Part shown: positions 15,618 to 46,349 of the stretch, piece after piece
Layout of the letters: each line of letters opens with the position of its first letter
Numbering within the stretch: position 1 is the stretch's first letter
DNA from: Akkermansia massiliensis
GTDB lineage: Bacteria > Verrucomicrobiota > Verrucomicrobiia > Verrucomicrobiales > Akkermansiaceae
Assembly (NCBI RefSeq): GCF_018847375.1
Contig: NZ_CP072036.1
Location: 1,302,001 to 1,366,000, forward strand
Reading direction: 5' to 3'
DNA length: 64,000 nt
Position numbers and translations under genes: made by a program
The notes under the pieces: generated by a model
The model's input: the letters and a program-made list of their open reading frames with translations, nothing else
The model's database searches: none
Told to the model about the DNA's origin: nothing

Positions 15618-15639
15618 GATGTTAAAGGATGGGATGGAA

Positions 15640-16728
15640 TCAGGGCCATGAGCCGTCAAACACGGCCAGTTGGCGTTGAAGGGTTTTGATTTTCTCCCGG
15701 CGTTTCCGGAAATTCCGGCCCGGAGAGACGGGGAGGCTCCATTGGTGGTGGCGCAGCCGGGAACGGAAGGCGCGCGTGAATTGCCGGTACAGGGCGCGCA
15801 GCTCCCTGCGGAAAGCCGGAGTTTGCCGGGCAAGGGGCCACCAGAGGGCGAGATACAGGCGGTGGTAGATTTTTTCCATATCCGGCGGCAGCCACGGCTT
15901 GTAATCACCCACCAGGTGGAAAAGCTTCCAGGAACGGCTTTCAAACAGGGCCGGGGCTTCTTCAAACTCGGTGCCGGAGATGAGGTCCGCCATTCCCGCA
16001 TGGTGCAGCTCAAACTGGAAGTGGTAATTCCAGCGGAGGGGCAGCGGAGCAATGCGGCCGTGAAAGACAATGTTGATAATGTCCTGGTCCACGTACGGAA
16101 AGGAATCCGGATGGGCCTCAAGCAGCCTCAGCAGCCTGTCTTCCGTTTCCTGCTCCCTCATCTGGACCAGGTCCATGACCATGACCCCGGTATTGCAGTA
16201 CAGGCGCGGATTCGTTACCCCCATGCCGCTGATGTATTCCAGATGGTCGGGAAGGCGGCCCGTACTGATGCTTTGCAGGACGGCGCAGTCCCGGACGGCG
16301 CCTATCGGCGCGCCGTGCAGGTCCGCATCGTAAAGTTCGGCCACGTCTCCATTCAGCAGCACGTCCACGTCCAGGTAAACCACCCTGTCGTGCCGGGGGA
16401 ACAGGGCGGCGGCCAGCAGGCGTCCATACGTGAGAGGGGAGAACCGTCCGCAATCCCTGTGCTGCAGAATGCGAAGCAGCCTCTCCGGAAGCCTGCAAAA
16501 CTCCAGCGAGACGCGGGGATAGCCGGAAACGGCTTTTCCCAGTTCCTTCATCTGTTCTTCCTCCAATCCATGATGAACGATGTAGAGTTCATAATTCCGC
16601 CGCGGATCGGAATGCACGCAAAGGGAGCGTATCGCCACGGCCAGCGGGATGAGCCAGGAGGAAGTGACGGCGAACATGACGGAAACGGGAGGTTCCGCCA
16701 TGCCGGATAAGGGAGAGATAGTCGGCAT
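15640..16728 (-). CDS. Glycosyltransferase family 8, second of tandem pair
   Basis: This 362-aa GT8 paralogue of the adjacent downstream gene shares VMFAVTSSW, DxD in YLDVDVLLN, YCNTGVMVMDLVQMR, YVDQDIINIVFHG, WNYHFQFEL and SWKLFHLVGDYKPW. The motif spacing is conserved with the neighbour while the acceptor-side residues differ, so the two probably add different sugars or act on different acceptors. The C-terminus is again Arg/Lys-rich (RNFRKRREKIKTLQRQL). It is the first gene of a two-gene minus-strand operon whose promoter would lie in the 16.7-17.3 kb intergenic region. Confidence 0.9.
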   Translation of the reverse strand: MPTISPLSGMAEPPVSVMFAVTSSWLIPLAVAIRSLCVHSDPRRNYELYIVHHGLEEEQMKELGKAVSGYPRVSLEFCRLPERLLRILQHRDCGRFSPLTYGRLLAAALFPRHDRVVYLDVDVLLNGDVAELYDADLHGAPIGAVRDCAVLQSISTGRLPDHLEYISGMGVTNPRLYCNTGVMVMDLVQMREQETEDRLLRLLEAHPDSFPYVDQDIINIVFHGRIAPLPLRWNYHFQFELHHAGMADLISGTEFEEAPALFESRSWKLFHLVGDYKPWLPPDMEKIYHRLYLALWWPLARQTPAFRRELRALYRQFTRAFRSRLRHHQWSLPVSPGRNFRKRREKIKTLQRQLAVFDGSWP

Positions 16729-16959
16729 AAAAGGAATTCAACAGGTCATGAAGAAGAATGGGAAAAGCTGAAAGCGTTTCCGGTGCCTGCCGGGAATTCC
16801 GGTATAAAGGTAGTTGGGAGAAAGGTCTTGTTTTTCATGGCGGAGATGAATTCCGGAAGAGCTGTTGAAACAGGGAAAACGGGCATCCCTGTTCCGGCGT
16901 TCCGTTATTCTCTGCATGGGACATTCCCGGCGGTGAAAACGCTCATATTTTGTTTGGGC

Positions 16960-16980
16960 ATCATACGAATTTCAAATCCG
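16960..16980 (-). promoter_or_regulatory. Dyad site with adjacent TATGAT box facing the GT8 operon
   Basis: On the minus strand CGGATTTGAAATTCG (16980 to 16966) is a one-mismatch copy of the perfect dyad at 17250-17264. It is followed immediately by TATGAT (16965 to 16960), a near-consensus -10 pointing at the GT8 genes. No strong -35 is visible. If used, the 5' leader to the GT8 start would be about 230 nt. Confidence 0.4.
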
Positions 16981-17242
16981 TCATGGATTAATATGGAATG
17001 ATTCCCGTACCGTTTGGAGTGCCGTAAACGCTTGCGGCTTCCGGAAGCCAAACCGGGAGGCAGCGAACTCTCTTTCCTGAAAGCCAGTGCGTCCTGACGG
17101 AATGCATGCATTTCAACGGCTGAGAGGCTTGCCGCGGTCCAGGTTTCCGTTGCGTAATTCCGGAAGGCTTTTTCCAGGGGAAAACGGTTTCCCCTCGAGG
17201 AAGGGCCACGCAACGTAAGCTCCTTGGTATGAAAATCGGCCC

Positions 17243-17272
17243 TTGACCCCGGATTTGAAATCCGTTTACATA
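17243..17272 (+). promoter_or_regulatory. Candidate sigma-70-type promoter with operator dyad for the GT2 operon
   Basis: TTGACC (17243-17248), an 18-nt spacer and TACATA (17267-17272) precede the first GT2 ATG at 17286. The spacer contains the perfect dyad CGGATTT-G-AAATCCG (17250-17264), starting 2 nt after the -35 box, which is an ideal place for a repressor to block polymerase. The boxes and dyad are read directly; the regulator is unknown. Confidence 0.55.
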
Positions 17273-17285
17273 GGGTTTTCTTGGT

Positions 17286-18386
17286 ATGAGCGCGGCTGTT
17301 TCCATCATCGTCCCCTGTTATAATGTAGCTCCTTATCTGGATAAATGCATGGAAAGCCTAACTCTCCAGACGCTGGGGGACCTTGAGATCATTTGCGTGA
17401 ATGACGGTTCCGGGGACGATACCCCAGCCATCCTGCGCGCATGGGCTGAAAGGGATGGCCGCATCCGGGTGGTGGATCGGGAAAACGGCGGCCTTTCTGC
17501 GGCGCGCAATACCGGCATGGCCCTGGCTGGCGGGGAATATATCGGCTTTGTGGACCCGGATGATTACGTGGAACACTCCATGTATGGCCGCCTGCTGGAA
17601 AAAGCCCGCAGGAGTGATGCGGATGTGACGGCCTGCGGCTATACCGGTTTTTCCGACCGTGACGGTTCCATACTGGAAAAATGGAGCCTGTCACCGGAAG
17701 AAGGAGTGGAAGAGAATGTACAGGCATGCGTTTTTCAGGAAAATGCCGTATGGAGAAGGATGGCCGCCGTGGCATGGAACAAGCTTTACAAGAGGGAATT
17801 CCTGGAAAGGAACAGCCTCCGCTTTGAGCCCCGCTTCCGGCAGGGGGAGGACGATGCCTTCTGGCTGATGGTGCTGGCCCACGCCTCCCGTCTGGCCGTC
17901 ATTCCGGACCGGCTCTATTGGTACCGCCGCCAGAGAGAAGGGGCTATTTCCCTGCCATGGGAGGAAGAAGGTTGTCCGCTGCCTCTTGTGGCGGACCGCC
18001 TTCTATATGCCACGGCGTACTGGAAAAAATGCGGCTGGCTGGAATCCGGCCTGGAACGCGGCTGGGTTCTGCACGCCCTGTGGTACTACCTGCTGGTGCA
18101 TCTGGTGCCGGCGCACAAGCCGCTTCCGCGCCTGAATGCGGAGGAATGGGCCCGGCTGCACGGAAAATTCCGGGAATGGTTCTCCCTGGTGGGAGGGGCG
18201 GACCGGTTGCGGGGCCTGGACAAATGGGAAAAGTCCTTCTGCCGCCTGCTGGAACAGCCTGCGGAACGTCCCGGCTGGCTGCGCCGCCGCTGGTGGAAGC
18301 GTCTTTCCCTCCGCAGGGGGCGCCGAGGGCGCTATTCCGCTCTTCGCTTGCTCCTGGCTTCCGCCGGAGAAAAAAACCATTCCTGA
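17286..18386 (+). CDS. Glycosyltransferase family 2, paralogue 1 of 4
   Basis: This 366-aa GT-A fold enzyme begins MSAAVSIIVPCYNVAPYLDKC. It has the nucleotide-binding ENGGLSAARNTGM segment, the donor/metal motif GFVDPDDYVE (DxD as D-P-D-D) and the later ED catalytic-base region (RQGEDDAFWL). The final third (YWYRR...; YWKKCGWLESGLERGW) is specific to this local family, and it ends in a basic RRGRRGRYSALRLLL tail. GT2 members of this shape extend exopolysaccharide or capsule glycans from nucleotide sugars at the membrane. It is the first gene of a four-gene tandem array, 6 nt before the next. Confidence 0.92.
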   Translation: MSAAVSIIVPCYNVAPYLDKCMESLTLQTLGDLEIICVNDGSGDDTPAILRAWAERDGRIRVVDRENGGLSAARNTGMALAGGEYIGFVDPDDYVEHSMYGRLLEKARRSDADVTACGYTGFSDRDGSILEKWSLSPEEGVEENVQACVFQENAVWRRMAAVAWNKLYKREFLERNSLRFEPRFRQGEDDAFWLMVLAHASRLAVIPDRLYWYRRQREGAISLPWEEEGCPLPLVADRLLYATAYWKKCGWLESGLERGWVLHALWYYLLVHLVPAHKPLPRLNAEEWARLHGKFREWFSLVGGADRLRGLDKWEKSFCRLLEQPAERPGWLRRRWWKRLSLRRGRRGRYSALRLLLASAGEKNHS

Positions 18387-18392
18387 CGCCCC

Positions 18393-19481
18393 ATGTCCGT
18401 TTCCATCGTCGTTCCCTGTTATAACGTAGCTCCGTATGTGGAGGAGTGCCTGGAAAGCCTGGTGAACCAGAGCTTGCAGGACCTTGAAATCATCTGTGTG
18501 AACGACGGTTCCACGGACGCTACCCCGGCGCTTCTGGATGCGTGGGCGCGGAGGGATGGCCGCATCCGCGTCATTCACCGTGAAAATGGAGGGCAGGCCT
18601 CCGCGCGCAACGTCGGGATGGATACGGCTGCGGGTGAATATGTGGGCTTTGTGGACCCGGACGACTATGTGGAGCATGCCATGTTTGCCCGTCTGGTGGA
18701 GGAATCCCGCAGGCATGGCGCGGACGTCACGGCTTGCGGTTACACCAGTTTTTCCGACGGTGACGGTTCCGTGCTGGAGGAATTGAGCTGGTCCCCCGCT
18801 GCGGGCGTGGAAAAGGAAGTGCAGTCAAGTATGGCCCGCGCGGGTTCCGTTTGGGAGCGGATGGACGTGGTGACGTGCAACAAACTGTACCGGAGGGATT
18901 TTCTGAACCGGCACGGCCTGCGTTTTGAAACCTCGTTCCGGTCCATGGAGGACGACGTGTTATGGCTGATGGCGCTGGCTCATGCCTCCTGCCTGGCCGT
19001 CATTCCGGACCGTCTGTACTGGTACCGCCGCCGGAGGCGCGGTTCCGTCTCCCAGATGCTGGAAGCGCAGGAACGTCCCCTCCTGCTGGTGGCGGAACGG
19101 CTGCTGCATGCTACGGAGTATTGGAAAAAATGCGGCTGGCTGGAATCCGGCCTGGAGCGCGGCTGGGTACTCCGGGCTCTGAGGCATTATCTTCTGGTCC
19201 GGCTGCTGAATCCGGGGCAGCCCCTGCCGCAGTTGAGTGAAGAGGAATGGGGGCGCCTGCGCGGCAAATGCCGGGAATGGTTTGCCCTGGCGGGGGAAGC
19301 GGAGGCGTTCCGGACTCTCGGCAAATGGGACTTTGCGCTGTGCCGGATGCTGGCTTCTCCGCCGGAACATCCCGGCTTCCTGTCCCGTGCGTGGTGGAAG
19401 CTTCTCTCCCGCTGCCGCGGACGGCGGGGACGTTACTACAGGCTTAAAGGGAAGCTTTCCTCTTGCGGCGGTGGGAAATAG
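18393..19481 (+). CDS. Glycosyltransferase family 2, paralogue 2 of 4
   Basis: This 362-aa protein begins MSVSIVVPCYNVAPYVEEC and shares ENGGQASARNVGM, GFVDPDDYVEHAM, MEDDVLWLMALAHAS and PDRLYWYRRRRRG with paralogue 1. The segment YWKKCGWLESGLERGWVL is identical in both proteins and nearly identical at the DNA level (about 18019-18068 and 19120-19169), which points to recent duplication or gene conversion. The tail is RGRRGRYYRLKGKL. It is probably co-transcribed with its upstream neighbour (6-nt gap). The donor and acceptor are not predictable. Confidence 0.92.
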   Translation: MSVSIVVPCYNVAPYVEECLESLVNQSLQDLEIICVNDGSTDATPALLDAWARRDGRIRVIHRENGGQASARNVGMDTAAGEYVGFVDPDDYVEHAMFARLVEESRRHGADVTACGYTSFSDGDGSVLEELSWSPAAGVEKEVQSSMARAGSVWERMDVVTCNKLYRRDFLNRHGLRFETSFRSMEDDVLWLMALAHASCLAVIPDRLYWYRRRRRGSVSQMLEAQERPLLLVAERLLHATEYWKKCGWLESGLERGWVLRALRHYLLVRLLNPGQPLPQLSEEEWGRLRGKCREWFALAGEAEAFRTLGKWDFALCRMLASPPEHPGFLSRAWWKLLSRCRGRRGRYYRLKGKLSSCGGGK

Positions 19482-19643
19482 CTTCCCGGCGGACTGGTTC
19501 TTAACATTCTGCGCATCGTTGGGACTTGCGGGAACGCCCGTGTTGAAGTAAGGTAGCCGTTGCGGGAAAAGGCGCGGGCATCATGAATCATGGTTTCCGC
19601 TGGTTTTTCCCATGAAAAACTGAATGATACTCACGATTTCTCT

Positions 19644-20729
19644 ATGGATGGTACTGTTTCCATTATTTTGCCCTGCTACAACGTTGCTCCTTATCTGGAT
19701 GAATGCCTGGAAAGCCTGGTCCGGCAGACCTGGGAAGACTTGGAAATCATCTGCGTCAACGACGGCTCCACGGACGATACGCCGGACGTGCTGCGCGGAT
19801 GGGCTGAAAAGGACGCCCGCATCCGGGTGATTCACCAGGAAAACGGGGGCGCCTTTTCCGCGCGCAATGCGGGGCTGGATGCGGCGGCGGGTGAATACAT
19901 CGGCTTTGTGGATCCGGATGATTACGTGGATACCTCCATGTATGCCCGGCTGGTGGAAACCGCGCAGCGGCATGGTGCGGAGGTGGCGGCCTGCGGATAT
20001 ACCTCCTTTTCCGAAGAAGACGGCACGGTGATGGAAGACGCCGGGCACGCGCCGGAACCCGGATTTGAACCTGATGCCAAAAAATCCTGTTTCAGCGGTG
20101 AGTCCGTGTGGCTCCGGATGGACGTGGTGGTATGGAACAAGGTGTACAGGCGTTCCTTTTTTGAAGAAAACGGCCTGCGCATGAAACCGGGGTTCCGCGG
20201 CGGGGAAGATGACATTTTCTGGCTGACGGCGCTTCCCCACGCGTCACGGCTCGCGGTCATTCAGGATCAATTATACTTTTACCGCAGGAAAAGGGCCGGA
20301 TCCCTTTCCGACGTCTGGGACCGGGACGGATGGTTTTACTCCATGAACATGGACCGTCTGGAATATGTGACGGCCTACTGGGAAAAAATCGGCTGGCTGG
20401 AATCTGCCGTCAGGCAGGGCTGGCTGGCCCATATCATGAAGCGTTATCTGCTGGCTCACGTCACCTCCGCAGAGGAAATCTTCCGGCGGCTGGATGAAGA
20501 GGAACGCAGGGGACTGGCGGCGCGTTACCGCAAATGGTTGAAAGGCGTGGAAATCGGGCCCGGCTTTGCAGGCCTGAACAAGTGGGACCGCGCGTTCTGC
20601 CGCCTGCTGGGTGCGGAACCGGTAAAGCTCGGTCCCGGCGCGCGTCTTCACAGTACCCTGATGTCGGCATGCAGCGGAAGAAAAGGACGGTACCACCGTC
20701 TTAAGCTCCTGTTATCCGGATTATCATGA
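19644..20729 (+). CDS. Glycosyltransferase family 2, paralogue 3 of 4
   Basis: This is a GT2 enzyme with SIILPCYNVAPYLDECLESLV, ENGGAFSARNAGLDAA, GFVDPDDYVDTSM and GGEDDIFWLTALPHAS. The ATG at 19644 gives 361 aa starting MDGTVSIILP, which matches its siblings' starts (MSAAVSII, MSVSIVV, MKTAVSVIV). An in-frame ATG at 19590 would add 18 residues without parallel. The basic tail is SGRKGRYHRLKLLL. There is a 162-nt gap from paralogue 2 in which no clear promoter was found. The stop codon overlaps the next start (ATGA at 20726-20729), so translation is coupled. Confidence 0.9.
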   Translation: MDGTVSIILPCYNVAPYLDECLESLVRQTWEDLEIICVNDGSTDDTPDVLRGWAEKDARIRVIHQENGGAFSARNAGLDAAAGEYIGFVDPDDYVDTSMYARLVETAQRHGAEVAACGYTSFSEEDGTVMEDAGHAPEPGFEPDAKKSCFSGESVWLRMDVVVWNKVYRRSFFEENGLRMKPGFRGGEDDIFWLTALPHASRLAVIQDQLYFYRRKRAGSLSDVWDRDGWFYSMNMDRLEYVTAYWEKIGWLESAVRQGWLAHIMKRYLLAHVTSAEEIFRRLDEEERRGLAARYRKWLKGVEIGPGFAGLNKWDRAFCRLLGAEPVKLGPGARLHSTLMSACSGRKGRYHRLKLLLSGLS

Positions 20730-21802
20730 AAACTGCCGTTTCCGTCATTGTCCCCTGTTACAACGTAGCGCCCTACGTGGACGAATGCATGTCCGGCCTG
20801 GCGGAGCAGACGCTGGGTCCCATGGAAATCATCTGCGTGGATGACGGCTCCACGGACGGGACGCTGGAGCTTCTGTACAGGTGGCGGGAAAAAGACAATC
20901 GCCTCCGGGTTATCAGCCAGTCCAACGCCGGAGTGTCCGCGGCCCGGAATGCCGGGCTGGATGCCGCGGAGGGAAAATACGTGGGCTTTGTGGACCCGGA
21001 TGACCGGGTGGACCGGAGGATGTTCTCGCGCCTGCTTGGCGCCGCTGAAAAGAATGATGCGGATGTCGTGGTGTGCGGTTGCCGGGAATTCGTGGAAAAA
21101 GACGGTGTGGCCGTCCATGAGGGCGGCTGGTCCCCGGATGATGAATTTTATCCGGAGGAACGGGTGGAGCAATTCCGCCGCGGTTCCGCCTGGTGCCGGT
21201 GCGTGGGTCCCGTGTACAACAAACTGGTCCGCAGAAGCCTGGTGGAAGAACATTCCCTCCGTTTTGTGGTAGGCTTGAAGGAAGGGGAGGATCTGGCCTT
21301 CCTGCTGATGCTGCTGCCCTTCGCTCCCCGGCTCCGGACCCTGTCGGACCGTTTTTACCATTACCGCAGGGAACGTCCCGGCTCCGCCACGTATGGACGG
21401 GATTTGCTGCTGGGCGACTTCCGTATGGACCTGCTGGGCATGGACCGGGTGGCCCGTTTCTGGCAGCGGCACGGCCTGCTGGATTCCCCCGCTGTCTTCG
21501 GGCTGGTGGACTACTACATGGAATTCATCCGCAGGCACTTCATCATGAAAGAAGGGGCCTTCTTCAAGGCGCCGCCGGAAGACCGGGAAATCCTCCTGTC
21601 CGGGTGGAAAGAATGGTTGGAACTGGTGGGCGGGGAGAAAGCCCTCTCCTGGCTGGACCGGTGGGACCAGGCGTTTTGCCGCCTTCTGCTGGACTACCCT
21701 TTTCAGGGCAATTTCTTTTCTTCCCTGCGTGCCCGCCTGATGTCATCCCGCAAAGGACGCCGGGGGGCTTATTATACCCTGAAAAGGCACCTGGCGAGGT
21801 GA
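20726..21802 (+). CDS. Glycosyltransferase family 2, paralogue 4 of 4
   Basis: This 358-aa protein begins MKTAVSVIVPCYNVAPYVDEC and has SNAGVSAARNAGLDAAEG and GFVDPDDRVDRRM. The later region, EGEDLAFLLMLLPFAPRL then FYHYRRERPGSAT, is the most divergent of the four, suggesting a different acceptor. The tail (RKGRRGAYYTLKRHL) keeps the shared basic signature. It is coupled by an ATGA overlap to paralogue 3, and a T-run hairpin follows the stop, so this is the last gene of the operon. Confidence 0.92.
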   Translation: MKTAVSVIVPCYNVAPYVDECMSGLAEQTLGPMEIICVDDGSTDGTLELLYRWREKDNRLRVISQSNAGVSAARNAGLDAAEGKYVGFVDPDDRVDRRMFSRLLGAAEKNDADVVVCGCREFVEKDGVAVHEGGWSPDDEFYPEERVEQFRRGSAWCRCVGPVYNKLVRRSLVEEHSLRFVVGLKEGEDLAFLLMLLPFAPRLRTLSDRFYHYRRERPGSATYGRDLLLGDFRMDLLGMDRVARFWQRHGLLDSPAVFGLVDYYMEFIRRHFIMKEGAFFKAPPEDREILLSGWKEWLELVGGEKALSWLDRWDQAFCRLLLDYPFQGNFFSSLRARLMSSRKGRRGAYYTLKRHLAR

Positions 21803-21832
21803 GAGGGAAAACCCTTCTTCCCTCGGTTTTTT
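21803..21832 (+). terminator. Intrinsic terminator of the GT2 operon
   Basis: GAGGGAA (21803-21809) pairs with TTCCCTC (21818-21824) around an 8-nt loop and is followed by GG and six T residues (21827-21832), directly after the stop of the fourth GT2 gene. Confidence 0.75.
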
Positions 21833-21877
21833 GGTGTGGTATGAGACCGTGAAGGAGCCGGAATGCTTTCCGGAATC

Positions 21878-22441
21878 CTACAGGCCCGTGTAGCACATCT
21901 GCTCCTTGAGCTGGGCTACCTGGAGGTCTTCTCCAAGGTATTCCCCGATGCAGTAGCCGAAGAGCATGGCGGCTCCGGGACCGTTGGCGGTGAGCATATT
22001 GCCGTCCAGCACCACGTTTTCATCCTTCACGATGTGGGCTCCGGCTTCATTGAGTTCCCGGTAGACGTCCTGGGCCGGGTAGGCCGTGACGTTCCTGTCC
22101 TTCACCAGGCCGGCTTTCGCCAGAGCGATGGGGGCGGCGCAGATGGCGGCCACCAGCTTGCCCGCGGCATGCATCTTTTTGACCAGGTGGATGACTTCCG
22201 GCGTGTCGCGGAGCACCCAGGCGCCTGCGCCGCCGGGCAGGATCAGGGCGTCCAGCTTGTCGGCATGGAGCTTGTCCAGCATGGTGTCCGTGGTGACGGT
22301 CACGTCATGGGTGCTGACCACCTTGTCGGACTGCACGCCGGCGAGGAGCACGTCAAAGTTCAGGCGGCGCAGGATGTCCAGCGGAGCCATGAGTTCGATT
22401 TCTTCAAATCCGGGGGCGGCGAGGATGGCGGCTTTTTTCAT
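21878..22441 (-). CDS. DJ-1/PfpI family protein (YajL-like)
   Basis: This 187-aa flavodoxin-like fold starts MKKAAILAAPGFEEIELMAPLDILRR. The reactive Cys101 sits in the nucleophile elbow VAAICAAPIALAKAG, and the conserved Glu lies in GFEEIE. PGG in LILPGGAGAW is also typical. Members of the YajL/DJ-1 branch act in protection against oxidative and carbonyl stress; a precise reaction is not assignable. Start 22441 was chosen over 22477 because the conserved domain begins at once. It is the last gene of a minus-strand run and lies 63 nt from the E2-like gene. Confidence 0.9.
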   Translation of the reverse strand: MKKAAILAAPGFEEIELMAPLDILRRLNFDVLLAGVQSDKVVSTHDVTVTTDTMLDKLHADKLDALILPGGAGAWVLRDTPEVIHLVKKMHAAGKLVAAICAAPIALAKAGLVKDRNVTAYPAQDVYRELNEAGAHIVKDENVVLDGNMLTANGPGAAMLFGYCIGEYLGEDLQVAQLKEQMCYTGL

Positions 22442-22504
22442 GGTTAATGAGACAGGGGGAAGGAAGGGAACGTTCAAGGAAAAGAGCGGACCATGCCGGT
22501 AGCC

Positions 22505-23545
22505 CTACAGGAGAAGCAGGACCGGATTTTCCAGCAGCGTCTTGAATTCGGCGGCGATTCTGGACGCCTTGCATTCCGGCAGGATGTTGGCGTTCACGTA
22601 CAGGGTGACGGGCAGGATGAGCTTGGACACAGGGCGTCCCGCTTCTATGCCCGTTTTCGGCGTGGTGCCGCCGATGCTGATGATGCTGTGGGGCATTTCC
22701 GGGAGCACGGTGCGCTGGGCTTCCACGTTCACGCCGCTGTCGCAGAGCAGGATGTTGGGCGTGATGCTGCCCGCGGGGGGCGGCCCTGCCGCGGGGGCGG
22801 CCAGCCGTTCCATGGCGATGTTGTAAATCGTCTTGCCGGAGGCGTTTTCAATGAAGACGTATTTTTCCCCCTTGTCCAGCACCATGAGCAGTTCTGCGGC
22901 GGAGTCTCCCGCCAGCCATTCCGGCTCGCTGATGCACGCTTTCACCGCGGCGCGCACCACGTAGTCAAAGAGGCTGTAGCGGCCGCCGATGAGTTTTTCG
23001 CACTGGACGGCGATGGGCGTGCTGATGGCGGCCAGGTAGGCCATGTTCGCCTCCAGGGAGTACAGGTAGAAATTATCCACGCGCGTGGCGTGGCGCGTGT
23101 CGCGGGGCGCCAGCGGGGTCTGCACCCGGCGGGCGGGGCCGTCTGCGGGGCGTATGGAGGCGCGCACGTCCGCGGCCATGATCTTGCCGCGTGGTCCGGT
23201 GCCGCGCAGGGTTCCGGCGTTCAGCCCGGCTTCCGCGGCCAGCCTGGCGGCCAGCGGGCTGCATTTGACGGGCGGGCACGGAGGGCAGTCGCAGGAGGCG
23301 GCGCCGAATTCCGACTGAAGCAGCGCAATGGGAGCGCCCACCGCGGCGGAACCGCCTTCCGGCACCAGGATTTCCATCAGGGTTCCGTCCTCGCATGCCT
23401 GGAGTTCCACGTGGGCCTTGTCCGTCTCGATGTCGGCCAGATGGTCGCCGACTTCTACGAAGTCTCCTATCTTTTTGACCCATCTCAGGACGATTCCTTC
23501 GTGCATGGAGTCGGACAGGCGGGGCATTTCAATGGTAATAGCCAT
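22505..23545 (-). CDS. Lipoylated 2-oxoacid dehydrogenase E2-like protein lacking catalytic residues
   Basis: The 346-aa protein has an N-terminal lipoyl domain (IEMPRLSDSMHEGIVL, lipoyl-Lys43 in ETDKA), a Cys-rich linker (C85, C87, C90, C95), a peripheral-subunit-binding domain (about 95-128; SPLAARLAAEAGL, GTGPRGKIMAADV) and an acyltransferase-type C-terminal domain. Where active E2 enzymes have a DHRxxDG motif, this protein reads NANILPE (residues 318-324), within a stretch that otherwise aligns residue for residue (LPVTLY before it, AEFKTLLENP after it). The catalytic His and Asp are therefore Ala and Pro. It resembles a non-catalytic, E3-binding-protein-like component. No E1 or E3 gene is nearby. 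Confidence 0.88.
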   Translation of the reverse strand: MAITIEMPRLSDSMHEGIVLRWVKKIGDFVEVGDHLADIETDKAHVELQACEDGTLMEILVPEGGSAAVGAPIALLQSEFGAASCDCPPCPPVKCSPLAARLAAEAGLNAGTLRGTGPRGKIMAADVRASIRPADGPARRVQTPLAPRDTRHATRVDNFYLYSLEANMAYLAAISTPIAVQCEKLIGGRYSLFDYVVRAAVKACISEPEWLAGDSAAELLMVLDKGEKYVFIENASGKTIYNIAMERLAAPAAGPPPAGSITPNILLCDSGVNVEAQRTVLPEMPHSIISIGGTTPKTGIEAGRPVSKLILPVTLYVNANILPECKASRIAAEFKTLLENPVLLLL

Positions 23546-23632
23546 GGAGGTGAATGTTGAACGTTGGAATACGATAAGAGGGGGATGGCGCGCCGGAAGG
23601 GTTTCCGTCCCGTCCGGCGCGCGGGTGCGCGG

Positions 23633-24781
23633 TTACGCGCTGTATTTTTCCACGCCGTCGATGAACACCTTGCAGGTGTTGAAGTCATCGTCCAGCAGAA
23701 CCATGTCCGCCGTGAAGCCGGGGGCGATCTTGCCCAGGCCTTCCAGGCCCAGGGACTGCGCCTGGTTCCAGGAGGTGGCTTTCACCAGGTCGCTGAGGGG
23801 CTTGCCGGTCAGGCGGTGCACGTTTTTCAGGCCGTGGGCGTATTTGAGGGTGCTGCCGGCCAGCGCGCCGGATTCCTGCAGGCGCGCCACGCCGTCCTTC
23901 ACGATGATGGGCAGGCCGCCCAGGTCTCCGGGGCCGTCCGGCATCCAGGAGCAGGCCAGGGAATCCGTAATCATCATCATCTGGTCCGTTTCCTTGTTCT
24001 TGAACACGGTCTTGAGCATGTCCGCGCAGAGGTGGATGGTGTCGCAGATGATTTCAATCTTGATTTCCCTGTCCAGCAGGCCGGAGCCCACCAGGCCGAT
24101 TTCACGGTGGTGCAGGGGGGACATCTGGTTGCAGTAGTGGGTCAGGTGCACCAAGCCCGCGGATTTCGCCTTGTTGAAGTCCGCATGGGTGGCCGCGCTG
24201 TGCCCGGCGGAGCAACGGATGCCGCTGGCCGTGGCTTTTTCAATGAATTCCACGGCTCCGGGCATTTCCGGCGCCAGGGAGACCAGCAGAACCTTGGCGA
24301 TGGAGTTCAGGTTGGCTACTTCATCATAGTCCGGCTGGCGGACAAAGGCGGGGTTCTGCGCGCCGCAGCACTTGGGATTGATGAACGGCCCTTCCAGATG
24401 GATGCCGGGCGTCTTGGCGAATTCCTGGTTCTTCATGTATTCCGCCACGGAGGCGCACACGTCTTCCAGCACCTTGGGAGACAGGGTGAGGGTGGTCGGC
24501 AGCCAGGAGGTGACGCCTTCCTTCATCTTGCATTCCGCAATGGTGCGGAGGCTTTCCAGCTTGGCGTCGCAGGTGTCGCAGCCGCCGGCGCCGTGGCTGT
24601 GGATGTCAATGAAACCGGGAAGGAGCATGCGGCCTTCCGCATCCACCACCTTGTCTGCGGCGGGGAGTTCGCTCCCGGCGGGATAGACGGCGGTGATGGT
24701 CTTGCCTTCAATTTCCACGGCAGCCCCGGGCAGGTCAATGCCGGGGGAGATGATGCGTGCGTTTTTAATGAGTGTTTTCAT
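23633..24781 (-). CDS. nagA: N-acetylglucosamine-6-phosphate deacetylase
   Basis: The enzyme hydrolyses GlcNAc-6-P to glucosamine-6-P and acetate, the entry step for mucin or cell-wall GlcNAc. The 382-aa amidohydrolase begins MKTLIKNARIISPG and has metal ligands H61 and H63 in GFIDIHSHGAGG, the metal-binding Glu in GIHLEGPFIN, His residues in SAGHSAATHAD and HLTHYCNQMSPLHHRE, and the catalytic Asp in MMITDSLACSW. Length fits NagA. Neighbouring genes are an upstream zinc-ribbon protein (60-nt gap) and the E2-like gene downstream. nagB is not in the window. Confidence 0.95.
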   Translation of the reverse strand: MKTLIKNARIISPGIDLPGAAVEIEGKTITAVYPAGSELPAADKVVDAEGRMLLPGFIDIHSHGAGGCDTCDAKLESLRTIAECKMKEGVTSWLPTTLTLSPKVLEDVCASVAEYMKNQEFAKTPGIHLEGPFINPKCCGAQNPAFVRQPDYDEVANLNSIAKVLLVSLAPEMPGAVEFIEKATASGIRCSAGHSAATHADFNKAKSAGLVHLTHYCNQMSPLHHREIGLVGSGLLDREIKIEIICDTIHLCADMLKTVFKNKETDQMMMITDSLACSWMPDGPGDLGGLPIIVKDGVARLQESGALAGSTLKYAHGLKNVHRLTGKPLSDLVKATSWNQAQSLGLEGLGKIAPGFTADMVLLDDDFNTCKVFIDGVEKYSA

Positions 24782-24841
24782 AAAAATGAATGGTTGGTGG
24801 ATGGATTTTTAGAGTCGCTTGATGATGAATACGGGGTTGTT

Positions 24842-25090
24842 TCACGCCGTTTTTCCGGAAATGACGAGCCACGACCATTTGCGGCAGCGGGGACAGCGGC
24901 CAAAGTTCCTTTTCCTGCCTGCCGATTTGTAAAGGATGCCGTATTTCCCGAAGGGTTCCTCCAGGCCGCAGCGGTTGCAGCGGATGGTCCATCCGGGCGC
25001 TCTTTTTTCCCATTTGGCGACGTTCTCCGGCGTGGCCTCCACTTCCTGCGGAGTGAAGACCTGGTTGATGAACCGCCTGAGAATATTCAT
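24842..25090 (-). CDS. Small zinc-ribbon protein
   Basis: This 82-aa protein begins MNILRRFINQVFTPQEVEA and has two CxxC knuckles, CNRCG and CPRCRKW, separated by about 25 residues, as in a zinc ribbon. No catalytic domain is visible. It lies 19 nt downstream of the cyclophilin gene and 60 nt before nagA on the same strand, which supports it being a real gene. The function is unknown; nucleic-acid or protein binding is possible. Confidence 0.7.
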   Translation of the reverse strand: MNILRRFINQVFTPQEVEATPENVAKWEKRAPGWTIRCNRCGLEEPFGKYGILYKSAGRKRNFGRCPRCRKWSWLVISGKTA

Positions 25091-25109
25091 GCCGTTGATT
25101 GCTCCCGGT

Positions 25110-25703
25110 TTATTTGGCGGCGTCCAGCGCCTTGTTCCACTGGGCCACGCGGGCGGCTTCCGCCTTCAGCACGGCGGCCGCGGCGTTCTTGTCCAGAATG
25201 CGGATGTCCTTGATCTTGTCTCCCCGGACGATGGAGTTGACGATGGCCTGGCCTTTCAGCACCTTCCCGAAGACCGTATGGCGGCCGTCCAGATGAGGCG
25301 TGGCAACGTGGGTGATGAAGAATTGGGAGCCGTTGGTGCCGGGTCCCGCGTTCGCCATGGAAAGCACGCCGGGGCCATCATGCTTGAGGTCCGGGGAAAA
25401 CTCGTCTTCAAAGCTGTAGCCGGGGCCTCCCATGCCCGTGCCGGTGGGGTCGCCGCCCTGGATCATGAAGTCCGGAATCACGCGGTGGAAGGAGATTCCC
25501 TTGTAGTAGCCCCTGTTGATGAGGTTCAGGAAATTGGCTACGGTGACGGGCGCCTTGGAGGGGTAAAGGGCCAGTTCAATGTCCCCCTTGGTGGTGGAGA
25601 TGACGATATTGACGTCCTTGAGGCTGGCGGTGGATGCTGCAGAGGCGGTGAAGCCCGCCAGGGCGCACAGGGAGCACAACAGAAGGGTAAGATACTTTTT
25701 CAT
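25110..25703 (-). CDS. Secreted peptidyl-prolyl cis-trans isomerase, cyclophilin type
   Basis: This 197-aa protein has a signal peptide ([22 protein letters not shown]) and so acts in the periplasm. The cyclophilin core includes [19 protein letters not shown] (catalytic Arg), [25 protein letters not shown] and [12 protein letters not shown]. The length without the signal matches single-domain bacterial cyclophilins. A C-terminal Ala/Lys-rich helix (about 172-197) is extra. It assists folding of exported proteins at Xaa-Pro bonds. The gene leads the zinc-ribbon and nagA genes on the minus strand. Confidence 0.94.
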
Positions 25704-25759
25704 GGCTTCTTGTTTTCCCCCCTATGTTGCCCGAATAAAAGCGGGTTTGCAAGTAAATC

Positions 25760-25793
25760 GCGCGCCCTGACGGGAGAATGGCGCAGGGTGCGC
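25760..25793 (-). terminator. Hairpin between the MFS transporter and cyclophilin genes
   Basis: GCGCGCCCTG (25760-25769) and CAGGGTGCGC (25784-25793) form a 10-bp stem with one G-U pair and a 14-nt loop. It lies between two minus-strand genes, about 70 nt after the MFS stop, so it may end the cstA-MFS transcript. The T-tract is weak. Confidence 0.35.
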
Positions 25794-25861
25794 GGAAGGA
25801 GGGAAAGGTTTTTCTTTAAAAGGAGGATTTTTAAAGATTACTGCCTGATTGCCAGTACATT

Positions 25862-27205
25862 TTATCTTGCGCCCGGCGCCACGCGGGAAAAACGGAAGAT
25901 CACCCACGCCATGCCGAGGCTCAGGATTCCCATGACGACGAATTGCCAGGAGGGGGGAATCACCAGCATCATGGCGTATTGGAATCCGACGGCCATCAGT
26001 CCCAGCACGCAGTCCACTAGGTTGCCGGCGGCAATCATGTCCCCGCGCTTGTCGTTGTCCGCCCGGTCCTGGAAGAAGGCGTTCAGCGGCACCAGGAACA
26101 GTGCGGCGGAGATGCCCGCCGCCATCAGCAGGGCATAAAAGACCGTGGAAGTCATGGAGACCGTAGAGAGGGCCACGCAGCTCAGCGCCATCAGCGCGCC
26201 TCCCGCCACGGAGACGTTCATCCGGATGTGGCGGCGGCAGATCAGGGAGGCCAGGATGCCCCCCAGCACGGTTCCTCCGCTCATCCAGGCCATCAGCACG
26301 GCTCCCACGGAGCTGAAATCGTCGCTGCCGCCGGAGATTTCCTTGGCCATCTGGATGGTCATCAGCATGATCGTGCCGCCGAAGAACCAGAAGTAGCCGA
26401 TGCCCATCTCGCTGACGCGCAGGTTGCGGTTTTTCCACAGCTTGCCCAGTTGGTGGAAGTGTTCGTAAAACAGGGACCAGGAGAAGGGCCGGAAACCCTC
26501 CGGAGCGTACCGGGGCAGGTAGAAGCTGGAAATCGCCACGGGAACGGCCATCAGCAGGAACACCAGGCAGGGGAAGGAGGCGGCATACCAGCCGTCGTTG
26601 AGGCCGGAGGGTTTCAGCCAGGCGTCAAACCACTGGAAGAAGCCTTCCCCCAGCCAGTGGTGCCAGACGGTATCCGTGGAAGGCTCCAGCAGGTAGCGGA
26701 ACCAGACGAAAACGCCGATCTGGCCGATGAGCAGGCTGAGGATGGAAGCCATTTCCACAATGCCGCTGGCGAACCCCATGCGGGAGGTGCCCACGATGTC
26801 CTTGACGATGCCCTTCTTGGACGGGCTGAAGATGGTGGCCTGCACGGCAAAGACGCAGAACCACAGGATGGCCCCGTCCAGGTTATGGGTACGCAGGCTC
26901 CAGTACATGCCCGCCAGCACGCAGATCTGGAGCAGCGCCATGGACTGGATGATGCGCGCCTTGCAGAAACGGTCCGAGAGCCAGCCGACGAACGGGGAAA
27001 ACAGGATGAAGGGCAGCACGATGATGGCCCCAAGCGGGTATTCCAGGTCTCCCTGCGTGCCGTACAGCCAGACGCCCAGGGGAATGAGCAGGAATTGCGC
27101 CCCCTTTTCATTAAAGGAATTCTGCGCCTGGATCAGCACGAGCCGCCAGAAGGCTCCCCATGGAACCTTGCGGGCGTGTCCGGGCGTATGGGGGCTGGGG
27201 TTCAT
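25862..27205 (-). CDS. MFS transporter, LplT/Aas-N-terminal-like
   Basis: This 447-aa protein with about 12 membrane helices starts MNPSPHTPGHARKVPWGAFW. A longer frame to 27313 overlaps the upstream cstA gene. NSFNEKGAQFLLIPLGVWLYG and QATIFSPSKKGIVKDIVG correspond to the LplT/Aas transporter signature (NDNxxK in helix 1 and AxFxPxKxG in helix 4), and SDRFCKARIIQ is the MFS loop 2-3 motif. LplT flips lysophospholipids across the inner membrane. That substrate is plausible here, but no acyltransferase partner is adjacent. The start lies 4 nt after the cstA stop, so the two genes form an operon. Confidence 0.82.
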   Translation of the reverse strand: MNPSPHTPGHARKVPWGAFWRLVLIQAQNSFNEKGAQFLLIPLGVWLYGTQGDLEYPLGAIIVLPFILFSPFVGWLSDRFCKARIIQSMALLQICVLAGMYWSLRTHNLDGAILWFCVFAVQATIFSPSKKGIVKDIVGTSRMGFASGIVEMASILSLLIGQIGVFVWFRYLLEPSTDTVWHHWLGEGFFQWFDAWLKPSGLNDGWYAASFPCLVFLLMAVPVAISSFYLPRYAPEGFRPFSWSLFYEHFHQLGKLWKNRNLRVSEMGIGYFWFFGGTIMLMTIQMAKEISGGSDDFSSVGAVLMAWMSGGTVLGGILASLICRRHIRMNVSVAGGALMALSCVALSTVSMTSTVFYALLMAAGISAALFLVPLNAFFQDRADNDKRGDMIAAGNLVDCVLGLMAVGFQYAMMLVIPPSWQFVVMGILSLGMAWVIFRFSRVAPGAR

Positions 27206-27209
27206 GAAA

Positions 27210-28682
27210 TTACAGGTTGGGCTCCTCCGCTTTTTCCAGTCCGGAGCCGCGGAACAGGCACAGCACGCCGATGACGGCCACGAGCAGGACGCTGCAGACC
27301 AGGGAAGCTTCATAACTGAACCCGCACATTTCCGGGCTGGAGAACAGGTACTGGAGCACCACCAGGCTCAGGAAGGCGGCGGGAACGGCGGCCGTCCAGC
27401 AGCAGCGGTTTTTGCTGCGCAGGTAAATGGAGACGGCCCAGAGGGTGGCGGCGGCCAGGAGCTGGTTGGCCCAGCCGAAGTACTGCCAGATGATGGCGTA
27501 GTCCATGCTGCTTACGGCAATGGCTGCGGCAAAGAGGGGGATGGCGATCATCAGGCGGCGGCTCAGTTGCTCCTGGTTCAGCTTGAAGCAATCCGCAATC
27601 ATCAGGCGCGTGACCCGCAGGGCGCCGTCCCCCGTGCTGATGGGGAGGATGACCACGCCGACCATGACCAGGATGGAGCCGACGTGGCCCATCCAGGATT
27701 CGGAAATCATCTGGATGGCCAGCGCCGGGGCCTTTCCGTTGGCGGTAGCCGCTCCCAGGGCTTCCGGGGTGCCGTAGAAGGTCAGCGCGGCGGCCGCCCA
27801 TATGAAGGCGATGATTCCTTCCGTAATCATGGCTCCGCCGAAGACGGGCAGTCCTTCCTGCTCCGTTTTCAGGCAGCGCGCCATCAGCGGGGACTGCGTG
27901 GCGTGGAAGCCGCTCACCGCTCCGCAGGCGATGGTGATGAACATCACGGGGAAGAGCGGGAAATCCGCCGGGTGGCGGTTATGGAAGAAGTCCAGGTCCG
28001 GGAGCACTTCCATAGAAGGAATGTGCATCCAGTACGGCATGAATTCCGCAAAGGGAGCCAGGAGCATCACGCCCAGAATGCCCACGACCATGATGATCAG
28101 GGCGACGGAGAAAAGGGGATACACCTTTCCCATGATGGCTTGGATGGGAAGGATGGTCGCCAGAAAGTAGTAGCCGAAGATGATCCACACCCATGCAGAA
28201 ACGCTCCAGCCCGTCATGGGGGCCAGGATGGCGGCGGGGCCCACGGCGAAGACGACGCCCACCAGCACGCTGAACACGATGCAGACGGCGCGGCTGATCC
28301 ACTGGGCCTGGCTGCCCAGGTAGCGGCCCAGGATTTCCGGCAGGTTTTCCCCCTTGTGGCGCAGGGAAATCATGCCGGAAAAGTAATCGTGCACCATTCC
28401 GCCGAAGATGCAGCCGATGACGATCCACAGGAGCGCGGCCGGCCCGTACAGCACGCCCATGACGGCGCCGAAGATAGGGCCCAGCCCCGCAATGTTCAGC
28501 AACTGAATCAGGAACACGCGCCAGCGCGGCATCACCACGTAATCCACGCCGTCCGTGCAGGCCACGGCGGGAGTCTGCCGCGAGGCGTCCGGCCGGAAAA
28601 TCTTTTCCAGCACCCGCCCGTAGGTGAAATAACCGGCCGCCAGGATCAATATCCCCAGAATGAAGTAGCAGTAACCGTTCAT
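27210..28682 (-). CDS. cstA: Carbon starvation protein CstA family transporter
   Basis: The 490-aa polytopic protein starts MNGYCYFILGILILAAGYFTYGR and contains the CstA hallmark stretches VDYVVMPRWRVFLIQLLNIAGLGPIFG, GGMVHDYFSGMISLRHKG and CGAVSGFHATQSPLMARCL (given here as separate short motifs). CstA/BtsT transporters import pyruvate or peptides. This version is shorter than E. coli CstA (about 700 aa) and resembles the compact type. Upstream Met codons at 28703 and 28898 give leaders that match nothing. It is followed by the MFS gene and divergent from a PEP-CTERM gene, with a dyad 107 bp upstream. Confidence 0.92.
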   Translation of the reverse strand: MNGYCYFILGILILAAGYFTYGRVLEKIFRPDASRQTPAVACTDGVDYVVMPRWRVFLIQLLNIAGLGPIFGAVMGVLYGPAALLWIVIGCIFGGMVHDYFSGMISLRHKGENLPEILGRYLGSQAQWISRAVCIVFSVLVGVVFAVGPAAILAPMTGWSVSAWVWIIFGYYFLATILPIQAIMGKVYPLFSVALIIMVVGILGVMLLAPFAEFMPYWMHIPSMEVLPDLDFFHNRHPADFPLFPVMFITIACGAVSGFHATQSPLMARCLKTEQEGLPVFGGAMITEGIIAFIWAAAALTFYGTPEALGAATANGKAPALAIQMISESWMGHVGSILVMVGVVILPISTGDGALRVTRLMIADCFKLNQEQLSRRLMIAIPLFAAAIAVSSMDYAIIWQYFGWANQLLAAATLWAVSIYLRSKNRCCWTAAVPAAFLSLVVLQYLFSSPEMCGFSYEASLVCSVLLVAVIGVLCLFRGSGLEKAEEPNL

Positions 28683-28788
28683 GTTGGAAAAAGGTCCAGC
28701 CATCTCATGGACAGGCTGTCCGTTCGGGGAACTTAACTGTTCTCCTCTCTTCTGGCAAGCCGTTAGTGAAAGAGAAAAAAATACGGAA

Positions 28789-28803
28789 CGGATTGCCAAT
28801 CCG
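28789..28803 (-). promoter_or_regulatory. Operator-like dyad upstream of cstA
   Basis: CGGATTGCCAATCCG is a perfect 7-1-7 dyad centred 114 bp upstream of the cstA start. With two flanking bases it is the exact inverse of the copy at 28962-28978. No clear -35 accompanies it on the minus strand. Confidence 0.45.
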
Positions 28804-28904
28804 AAAAAGAAATCCGATGTGCCATTTTTATGCAGATAAAAATCGGCATGAGGAATTTTACAACGAGTTTTAAAATTCCCGAAAAAAGAAACTCTCATCA
28901 GTAA

Positions 28905-28922
28905 AAACGCCCCTGGGCGTTT
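28905..28922. terminator. Small symmetrical hairpin AAACGCCC/GGGCGTTT
   Basis: AAACGCCC (28905-28912) pairs with GGGCGTTT (28915-28922), with flanking A and T runs on both sides. It lies between two divergent start regions, so it is either a barrier to read-through or a processing element. Confidence 0.35.
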
Positions 28923-28956
28923 ATCTTCCTAAACATCTTGTTTTTATCATTTATTG

Positions 28957-28985
28957 TTGACTTCGGATTGGCAATCCGCTAAGGG
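28957..28985 (+). promoter_or_regulatory. TTGACT box plus operator-like dyad before PEP-CTERM gene
   Basis: TTGACT (28957-28962), one base, then the perfect dyad CGGATTGGCAATCCG (28964-28978). This is the same box-to-dyad spacing as at the GT2 promoter (17243-17264). A -10 is less clear: TAAGGG at 28980 gives a 17-nt spacer. The PEP-CTERM start is at 29019. Confidence 0.45.
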
Positions 28986-29018
28986 ATAAAGGTTGCTTTC
29001 ATCCAACCTCTCCTAGTT

Positions 29019-29780
29019 ATGAAGAAATCATTGATAATCATTGCCTCCCTGACTTTTGGAACAGCAGTTTCCCAGGCTGCGGTGTTGTGTTCCACTACTT
29101 TTAACCGGACCGGCACTTCCCTGGATACCGTCACGGTGAACACGACATCCGATGTAGGGCTCACTTCCTCCACCTCGATCAGTTCTGACGATTTCAGCAA
29201 GAGCACCTCGGGCAATGACCTCCTGGCCTCAGGTTCCATTCCGGCCTCCGTGTTTTCTCCCAATGCCAATGTGGGAGGCGCCGGAAACAATACATGGAGC
29301 GTTTCCTTCACATTCACCAATACCGGTTCCCACGACATGCTGATATCTTCCATTGACTTGTCCATGGTCGGGTTCACGGGTGCGGGGGCTGCCCAGAATG
29401 GCGGTGGCGGTATAGCCAATAATGGTTATGTGGGCGGATATGAAGGCAATTTCAACAAACCTGTCGATATGACTCTCTCCATTGACGGGCAGCCGGACCA
29501 GACGCTGACCTATAACGGTTCCACCGCCGCCAATGGTTCCACCGGCGCATGGACCGGCATTCATACGGGAAGCCACACGTACGATGATTTTCTGCTGAAA
29601 GCCGGGGAATCCCTGACCATCACCATCACGGCTTCCAATAACAGCGCTTATAACAAGGGCTGCTTTGCCGGGCTTTCGGGAATTCAGATTAACGGTGATT
29701 TGGTGGTTCCCGAACCTGCCACGGCCTCCCTGGGTCTTCTGGGGCTGGCTGCGCTGATGATGCGCCGCCGCAGACTTTAA
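29019..29780 (+). CDS. PEP-CTERM sorting-domain protein 1
   Basis: This 253-aa exported protein has a signal peptide (MKKSLIIIASLTFGTAVSQA), a Ser/Thr/Gly/Asn-rich beta-type body and a C-terminal sorting signal: VPEPATASLGLL, a hydrophobic stretch, then MRRRRL. In known systems such tails are recognised and removed by an exosortase (EpsH family) linked to exopolysaccharide. No exosortase is in the window. The body has no recognised enzymatic domain. It is preceded by the TTGACT/dyad element and followed by a strong terminator. Confidence 0.9.
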   Translation: MKKSLIIIASLTFGTAVSQAAVLCSTTFNRTGTSLDTVTVNTTSDVGLTSSTSISSDDFSKSTSGNDLLASGSIPASVFSPNANVGGAGNNTWSVSFTFTNTGSHDMLISSIDLSMVGFTGAGAAQNGGGGIANNGYVGGYEGNFNKPVDMTLSIDGQPDQTLTYNGSTAANGSTGAWTGIHTGSHTYDDFLLKAGESLTITITASNNSAYNKGCFAGLSGIQINGDLVVPEPATASLGLLGLAALMMRRRRL

Positions 29781-29805
29781 GTCCATGCTCCTGAAACATT
29801 TGATC

Positions 29806-29839
29806 AAGCCGTCCGTTTTTTGAAATTGGCGGCTTTTTT
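29806..29839 (+). terminator. Intrinsic terminator after PEP-CTERM gene 1
   Basis: AAGCCGTC (29806-29813) pairs with GGCGGCTT (29828-29835, one G-U pair) and is followed by a T-run with a single A interruption. Confidence 0.7.
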
Positions 29840-29957
29840 ATTTTCAGTTAGCAGAATCTAACACTTTTTAATATTTAATATCAGTAATCAACATGATTCC
29901 TCAGGCAGTTTGTTCTTTAGCCTGATGCCTTTTGAATCACTTTTCCGCCAGCTTGCC

Positions 29958-46217: not shown

Positions 46218-46349
46218 TTGATTTTAATTGGGGAAATGCCTTAAAGGGAAAGTTTTTGAATAACATATTCTTCGTTTACGGCAAGATAAAACACTGATGC
46301 CCGATTTTCCTTGATGATGCGGAAGTTGATACGCTAGAGTAAAAGAACC

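Follow-up and report, generated by a model that had tools for sequence, protein, structure and literature searches.

Paired CGGATT-N3-AATCCG repeats in Akkermansia as probable borders of two invertible half-promoter segments, with a candidate recombinase

In the invertible promoters of Bacteroidota and in fimS of Escherichia coli, an entire promoter lies within a segment that is bounded by short inverted repeats and turned over by a site-specific recombinase, with ON/OFF output depending on orientation. Invertible segments (invertons) are in print for Akkermansia as well: the methods of PMC13343947 give CGGATT..AATCCG as the Akkermansia inverton repeat, attributed to Jiang et al., and passages of the same article describe ON/OFF switching of the cps1 inverton. 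According to passages of PMC11892184, the motif of inverton group 138 closely resembles the published A. muciniphila motif and PEP-CTERM genes are enriched near this group; nine inverton-invertase links are reported, group 138 not being among those named there; nearby invertases are generally not inverton-regulated, with group 145 as a possible exception; and a previously described Akkermansia promoter motif, from Jiang 2019, is mentioned.

We analyzed a 64,000-nucleotide (nt) stretch of Akkermansia massiliensis (NZ_CP072036.1, positions 1,302,001 to 1,366,000; hereafter the window), in which an earlier note had pointed out four copies of this 15-bp dyad and had called them undescribed, a description that the published motif (PMC13343947, PMC11892184) contradicts. 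The window elements share with the published Akkermansia invertons the repeat motif, the organism group, the glycan and PEP-CTERM neighbors and reversible inversion, seen here from orthologues; they differ from the cps1 inverton in lying beside glycosyltransferase family 8 and family 2 (GT8 and GT2) and PEP-CTERM genes, and no Wza domain was found among the 20 window open reading frames (ORFs) scanned. The published passages (PMC13343947, PMC11892184) name no recombinase and contain no layout with the -35 box inside and the -10 box outside the segment. We propose such a layout, in which, unlike in the Bacteroidota promoters and fimS, the -35 box alone would move and each flank would supply its own -10 box. 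Our literature search, which was thin on subscription papers, found neither a recombinase for Akkermansia invertons nor a split promoter; since PMC11892184 mentions an earlier Akkermansia promoter motif, Jiang 2019 may already contain some of the split layout. Thus the motif, its inverton nature and cps1 switching were already known, and the half-promoter architecture and the candidate enzyme are possibly new.

Paired repeats and flipped orthologues

All four dyads are present where the earlier note had placed them, namely CGAATTTCAAATCCG at 16966-16980 (one mismatch), CGGATTTGAAATCCG at 17250-17264, CGGATTGCCAATCCG at 28789-28803 and CGGATTGGCAATCCG at 28964-28978, and the window holds no further copy at 0-1 mismatch, as had also been said; at up to 2 mismatches there were 8 matches versus 3.61 expected. 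That note had missed that the dyads form two inverted pairs, 16966/17250 (inverton 1) and 28789/28964 (inverton 2), whose 3-nt centers are reverse complements of each other. Each 15-mer is nearly palindromic in itself, and it is the asymmetric center that makes the whole 15-mer pair an inverted repeat.

The exact motif and a reversed control pattern were counted in 141 genomes of the order, 23 of them members of the genus. A genome-wide search of the kind the earlier note had suggested found 65 exact copies and no copy of the reversed pattern in G001, the comparison genome nearest to the window (84% of sampled 31-mers), where base composition (G+C taken as 0.557) predicts ~0.18, a number far beyond chance. 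Twelve genomes of the genus carried 37-88 exact copies, G083 carried 11 and ten carried 0-4; outside the genus but in the same order the count was 0-8 except in G008 (16) and G066 (17), and the reversed pattern occurred 0 or 1 times in every genome. G008 and G066 belong to the same other family of the order; among the G066 copies listed, the sites were unpaired and mostly shared a GGC/GCC center, and they are probably a different repeat.

Pairing was examined in stretches around 54 of the 65 exact G001 sites, 28 of 44 in G054, 29 of 37 in G016, 20 of 56 in G011 and 10 of 88 in G068. Sites paired with complementary centers made up 51/54 (52/54 by a looser count), 27/28, 28/29, 19/20 and 10/10 of these, respectively. 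Circularity was avoided in a test of neighboring exact G001 sites 60-600 bp apart, chosen without requiring complementarity: 19 of 20 such pairs were complementary versus 1/64 expected, and the sole exception joined sites from two adjacent invertons. The idea that centers serve as unique addresses was rejected, as evidenced by the same center occurring at several loci.

Orthologous loci were found in both orientations. At the inverton 2 locus of G016 the interior is inverted between collinear flanks, the reversed stretch corresponding to window positions 28789-28979, and six genomes (G001, G019, G023, G027, G035 and G054) show the window orientation. The window and five genomes share the centers GCC/GGC at this locus; those of G016 are CCC/GGG and those of G054 CCT/AGG. 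Centers that vary between orthologues yet stay complementary within a locus are expected if recombination requires the overlaps to match. Because the orthologue scan worked with pairs selected for complementarity, this lock-step is partly built in, and the G001 neighbor test is the independent check. G043 carries two tandem invertons at the cstA/PEP-CTERM locus (G043:C20, ~44729-46784; L193, L197), their orientation left uncalled, as if the cassette had been duplicated together with its gene.

G001 and G035 were the only comparison genomes in which the 269-bp cassette of inverton 1 turned up, both times in the window orientation. Five other genomes carry a shorter cassette at this locus, of 153 bp (G027, G023) or 155 bp (G095, G011, G078), and in the stretches fetched from G019 and G043 no pair was found. 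G011 carries the locus in the opposite orientation to G078 (interior identity 0.94 reversed, 0.54 unreversed; flank identities 0.97 and 0.95) and to G095 (0.88 reversed, 0.56 unreversed). A comparison of two close genomes, G016 and G054, covered 12 orthologous invertons, of which 5 were flipped, 6 the same and 1 undecided; over all 62 orthologue pairs, many of them non-independent, the figures were 15, 39 and 8, respectively. These comparisons make it almost certain that the four dyads bound two invertons of the Akkermansia muciniphila complex as their paired inverted repeats.

A promoter probably divided between segment and flank

The promoter layout was examined in 90 invertons (33 from G001, 2 from the window, 19 from G054, 21 from G016, 10 from G011 and 5 from G068), a set that includes orthologues and is partly non-independent. 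In 65 of the 90, one of the two repeats had TTGAC 1 nt to its inner side, and none had it at both ends; a gap of 2 was seen twice and other gaps from 0 to 9 were not seen at all. On the outside, TA began 1 nt beyond the repeat (+1) at 36 of 94 ends, compared with 1-13 at the other eleven offsets (0-11). Combined, the layout reads TTGAC(N)-17-TA(nnnn), which is sigma-70 spacing with the recombination site as spacer, and a copy fetched from the distant lineage G068 (L238) reads TTGACA-G-repeat-C-TATGC. In G001, flanks with TA faced an outward gene start in 21 of 25 cases versus 21 of 41 for other flanks (Fisher p 0.009; an ORF-based, rough measure). On this evidence the promoter is very probably split, with its -35 box within the segment and its -10 box in the flank. 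The features of the two loci are as follows; those given without a strand are unstranded.

16966-17264: inverton 1, whole, 299 bp, between the GT8 genes (minus strand) and the GT2 operon (plus strand)
16966-16980: left inverted repeat and putative recombination site of inverton 1; center TCA, G to A in the outer arm
16981-17249: invertible segment of inverton 1, 269 bp; borders shared, at or adjoining, with cassette homologues elsewhere in the genome
17250-17264: right inverted repeat and putative recombination site of inverton 1; center TGA
17243-17248, plus: -35 box TTGACC of inverton 1, within the segment and separated from the repeat by 1 nt; points at the GT2 operon in the window assembly
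17266-17271, plus: candidate -10 box TTACAT of inverton 1, outside, spacing 17; poor consensus match, kept in 8/8 genomes
16960-16965, minus: candidate -10 box TATGAT of inverton 1 in the opposite flank; TAT[GA]AT in 8/8 genomes
28789-28978: inverton 2, whole, 190 bp, between cstA (minus strand) and the PEP-CTERM gene (plus strand)
28789-28803: left inverted repeat of inverton 2; center GCC
28804-28963: invertible segment of inverton 2, 160 bp; inverted in the G016 orthologue
28964-28978: right inverted repeat of inverton 2; center GGC
28957-28962, plus: -35 box TTGACT of inverton 2, inside the segment; points at the PEP-CTERM gene
28980-28985, plus: weak candidate -10 box TAAGGG of inverton 2, outside, spacing 17; TAAAAA in the G016 orthologue
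15640-16728, minus: GT8 glycosyltransferase gene (PF01501)
Within frame 14517-16121, minus: second GT8 domain (PF01501)
17286-21802, plus: four GT2 glycosyltransferase genes (17286-18386, 18393-19481, 19590-20729, 20726-21802; PF00535)
27210-28682, minus: cstA-like carbon starvation protein gene (PF02554)
29019-29780, plus: PEP-CTERM surface protein gene (PF07589)

The earlier note had recorded that two dyads lie one base behind a TTGACY box and that a third adjoins TATGAT; all three hold at the coordinates listed, with TATGAT on the minus strand next to the dyad at 16966. The inverton 1 locus makes the strongest case for the split: eight of eight genomes including the window have TAT[GA]AT directly outside on the GT8 side and TTACAT 0-1 nt outside on the GT2 side, and these flanking hexamers are constant despite the different cassettes between them. 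TTGAC is present on one side only in each genome, directed toward GT2 in seven and toward GT8 in G011. Inversion of the window copy would yield TTGACC-N16-TATGAT directed at the GT8 genes, and because a -10-like hexamer is conserved on either side in all eight genomes, the element looks like a toggle between the GT8 genes and the GT2 operon. Inverton 2 has the weak TAAGGG on its PEP-CTERM side, and no -10-like hexamer was seen at the right spacing on its cstA side; it looks like an on/off switch for the PEP-CTERM gene that leaves cstA undriven, and the link to carbon status drawn in the earlier note finds no support.

A large sulfatase that also contains PA14 and BACON domains (29910-34214) lies downstream of the PEP-CTERM gene and might be served by the inverton 2 switch as well. 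Inside inverton 2, at 28905-28922, a hairpin-like AAACGCCC-CT-GGGCGTTT was spotted by eye and could act as a terminator. A generic promoter scan of window positions 16000-30000 gave 5 matches versus 4.6 in shuffles, no excess; the window matched no RNA family at gathering scores and no plasmid.

We propose that each 15-bp repeat would be the core site of a tyrosine recombinase, with two 6-bp arms around a 3-bp asymmetric center that matches its partner and with TTNNNAA as the 7-bp overlap. A -35 box would lie in the segment, 1 nt inward of one repeat, with this repeat forming the core of a 16-17 bp promoter spacer and the -10 box remaining in the flank; inversion would then shift the -35 box between flanks, and a flank with a -10 box would be ON only while the -35 box faces it. 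Inverton 1 would serve either side, the GT2 operon on the right or the GT8 genes on the left, and inverton 2 would control the PEP-CTERM gene with cstA not driven. The flipping enzyme would most likely be a core chromosomal tyrosine recombinase, here called group A. Arm mismatches in the 90 invertons (orthologues included) fell in the outer arm 44 times and in the inner arm 6 times, perhaps reflecting stronger inner-arm binding or an accessory factor within the segment.

A candidate recombinase and competing explanations

A search for PF00589 proteins, covering G001, nine other genomes and also G027, G019 and G023, turned up among others one family of ~340-390 amino acids with many paralogues, groups A, C and D among them. 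Group A was present at 92-100% identity in 11 of the 23 genus genomes, the same 11 main-clade genomes that carry 37-84 exact sites; in the other 12 the best full-length match was at most 47% identical (one 139-residue fragment, in G051, reached 50%). The group A locus was alignable across 13 loci, some of them the same gene twice, at full length in all but one. G027 (74 sites, 4 PF00589 proteins) and G023 (56 sites, 5 PF00589 proteins) share only an XerD-like protein, an XerC-like protein and group A, the Xer names being taken from G001 orthologues that score just below the NCBIfam cut-offs; judged by match length and score and by absence from the family matches, G023 lacks a counterpart of L155 from G027.

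Group A contains a PF00589 domain (46.3 bits, cut-off 27.1). Residues R208, K235, R298, H299, H321 and Y331, which we take to be the catalytic set of tyrosine recombinases, are invariant in 14 aligned members. The box II position, usually His in tyrosine recombinases, is Asp. Group A is far under the NCBIfam cut-offs of all four models matched and was rejected as an XerC/XerD equivalog (36.8 and 32.3 bits versus cut-offs of 335 and 330), the Xer-like proteins of the same genome scoring 328 and 319.5, narrowly below. Its predicted structure (mean predicted local distance difference test score 81.5, predicted template modeling score 0.60) was matched best in Foldseek by DNA-bound lambda Int (E 1e-8, template modeling (TM) score about 0.5), with TM about 0.35-0.5 on query length against lambda Int, XerA and Tn1549 Int. 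Group A thus shares PF00589, catalytic residues and predicted fold with lambda Int, XerD/XerA/XerH and Tn1549 Int, and it differs from them in its box II Asp, its sub-cut-off NCBIfam scores and its paralogues, which often have a private inverton at their own promoter. No recombinase gene was found in the window by tblastn with the recombinases collected. A serine invertase of the Hin/Mpi type was rejected as the enzyme: of six motif-rich genomes tested, G027 and G068 have PF00239 and the other four (G001, G016, G023 and G054) lack it.

A pair of the same architecture stood directly upstream of the family gene in 21 of 48 gene matches, versus 0/48 downstream and 0/960 in shuffled upstream sequence; for group A the figure was 0 of 10 matches (9 distinct genes). 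Three matches had too little upstream sequence. The arms of these self-promoter pairs differ by paralogue. AGGATT-N3-AATCCT forms a complementary pair in seven genomes, always just upstream of a family member, with 8 unpaired single copies elsewhere; a CGAATT-N3-AATTCG pair stands upstream of a family member in G083, and one in G016 lies away from any recombinase match. Such pairs fit self-switching recombinases with private sites, and because paralogues bear pairs of the same architecture at their own promoters, the family likely has a role in inversion. It would be a further exception to the rule that invertases are not regulated by nearby invertons. Beside a group D recombinase, regular 16-bp repeats ~66 bp apart (L066, 4274-4642; L072, 4289-4985) resemble an array and are perhaps clustered regularly interspaced short palindromic repeats (CRISPR).

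Within this family, we favor group A, with confidence somewhat above even, as the candidate main recombinase. For invertons with a moving -35 box and a likely group A enzyme as the overall best explanation, we estimate a probability of roughly 0.9.

Several observations count against this explanation. Both window elements have the same orientation in the nearest relative, G001. TTGAC ends had TA at +1 outside in 24 of 65 cases, no more often than the other ends did (49 of 114); the rule that the TTGAC end faces the TA flank in assemblies was therefore rejected, and this result fits free switching and on its own lends no support to a -35/-10 pairing. The -10 hexamers of the window elements, TATGAT excepted, are poor consensus matches, and exact TTGAC at gap 1 is missing from 25 of the 90 invertons. 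As to the enzyme, the 11 group A genomes look like one clade, and the co-occurrence of group A and sites may stem from a single event rather than prove a link; G068 has 88 sites and no group A, those listed nearly all sharing one center, the pattern that amplification of a single cassette would leave. CGGATT sites could be substrates for group C and D members as well. Less likely as flipping enzymes, though compatible by their presence pattern, are the XerC- and XerD-like proteins.

The alternative that survives best keeps the invertons and changes the enzyme: the flipping would be done by a different recombinase, be it of group C or D, a phage-borne integrase or one of the XerC/XerD-like proteins, or be shared among several. 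Groups C and D bear CGGATT-armed invertons at their own 5' ends, in G068 at the promoter of group C. Between G068 and the main clade the group C proteins are 84-85% alike and the Xer-like proteins ~54-59%, which suggests transfer. Yet in G027, with its 74 sites, group A is the sole family member at E 1e-35, and XerC- and XerD-like proteins occur in motif-poor genomes too. We consider this alternative possible, at clearly less than even odds.

The whole inverton 1 cassette is 67-75% alike to G001:C2:958508-958804, G035:C3:126215-126512 and others at unrelated loci, with homology ending mostly at or adjoining the outer repeat edges, as if cassettes spread or were exchanged as units. G068 carries many ~195-bp cassettes (L236, L238, L239 and others) with the same TTG/CAA center, often at contig ends, apparently an amplified inverton in a distant lineage. 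These similarities, together with the different cassettes at the inverton 1 locus of different genomes, are what would be expected of decayed or active mobile repeats (like miniature inverted-repeat transposable elements or repetitive extragenic palindromes) that spread promoters, inversion being incidental; such repeats are nonetheless very unlikely to be the explanation, as centers vary between loci yet match within pairs, G016 and G054, close as they are, differ in orientation at 5 of 12 orthologues, and published passages describe ON/OFF flipping of another inverton with the CGGATT motif (PMC13343947).

Least credible, and dropped, is the earlier note's reading of the dyads as operators of a dimeric transcription factor for a surface-polysaccharide/carbon regulon, which would account for palindromic, promoter-adjacent, genome-wide sites beside surface genes in the window but has no need of a complementary partner at 150-500 bp (found for 51 of 54 exact G001 sites, rather than single dyads) or of flipped orthologues, and whose motif is in print as an inverton repeat; as the sole explanation it is refuted because an orthologue is flipped with breaks at the dyads. 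What stands of that note is a regulatory feature that is genome-wide, promoter-linked and near glycosyltransferase and PEP-CTERM genes, its role being that of inverted repeats of invertible segments. A transcription factor may additionally bind the dyads, which is compatible with invertons.

A possible switchboard in A. muciniphila

Extending the inverton reading across A. muciniphila gives a broader picture that we hold tentatively, at a little under even odds: a switchboard of split promoters with group A as master, self-switching paralogues with private site codes, lock-step centers and exchangeable cassettes. Dozens of segments would carry only a -35 box, and one segment could alternate between two divergent operons. 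Group A, itself without a self-inverton, would act as the master, and the paralogues, members of one recombinase family of the genus, would often flip their own promoters via private arms (CGGATT, AGGATT, CGAATT, CGGATA and others), thereby displaying their site code. Whole cassettes would be swapped at a locus as the flanking -10 boxes stay, and centers would evolve in lock-step at each locus.

The sequence rule would predict which flank is ON, a prediction missing from the published passages (PMC13343947, PMC11892184). The candidate invertase would offer a handle, in that its removal should lock many switches together. With these readings, a supposed operator becomes two probable phase-variable switches, at a surface-glycan and a surface-protein locus of a major mucus bacterium.

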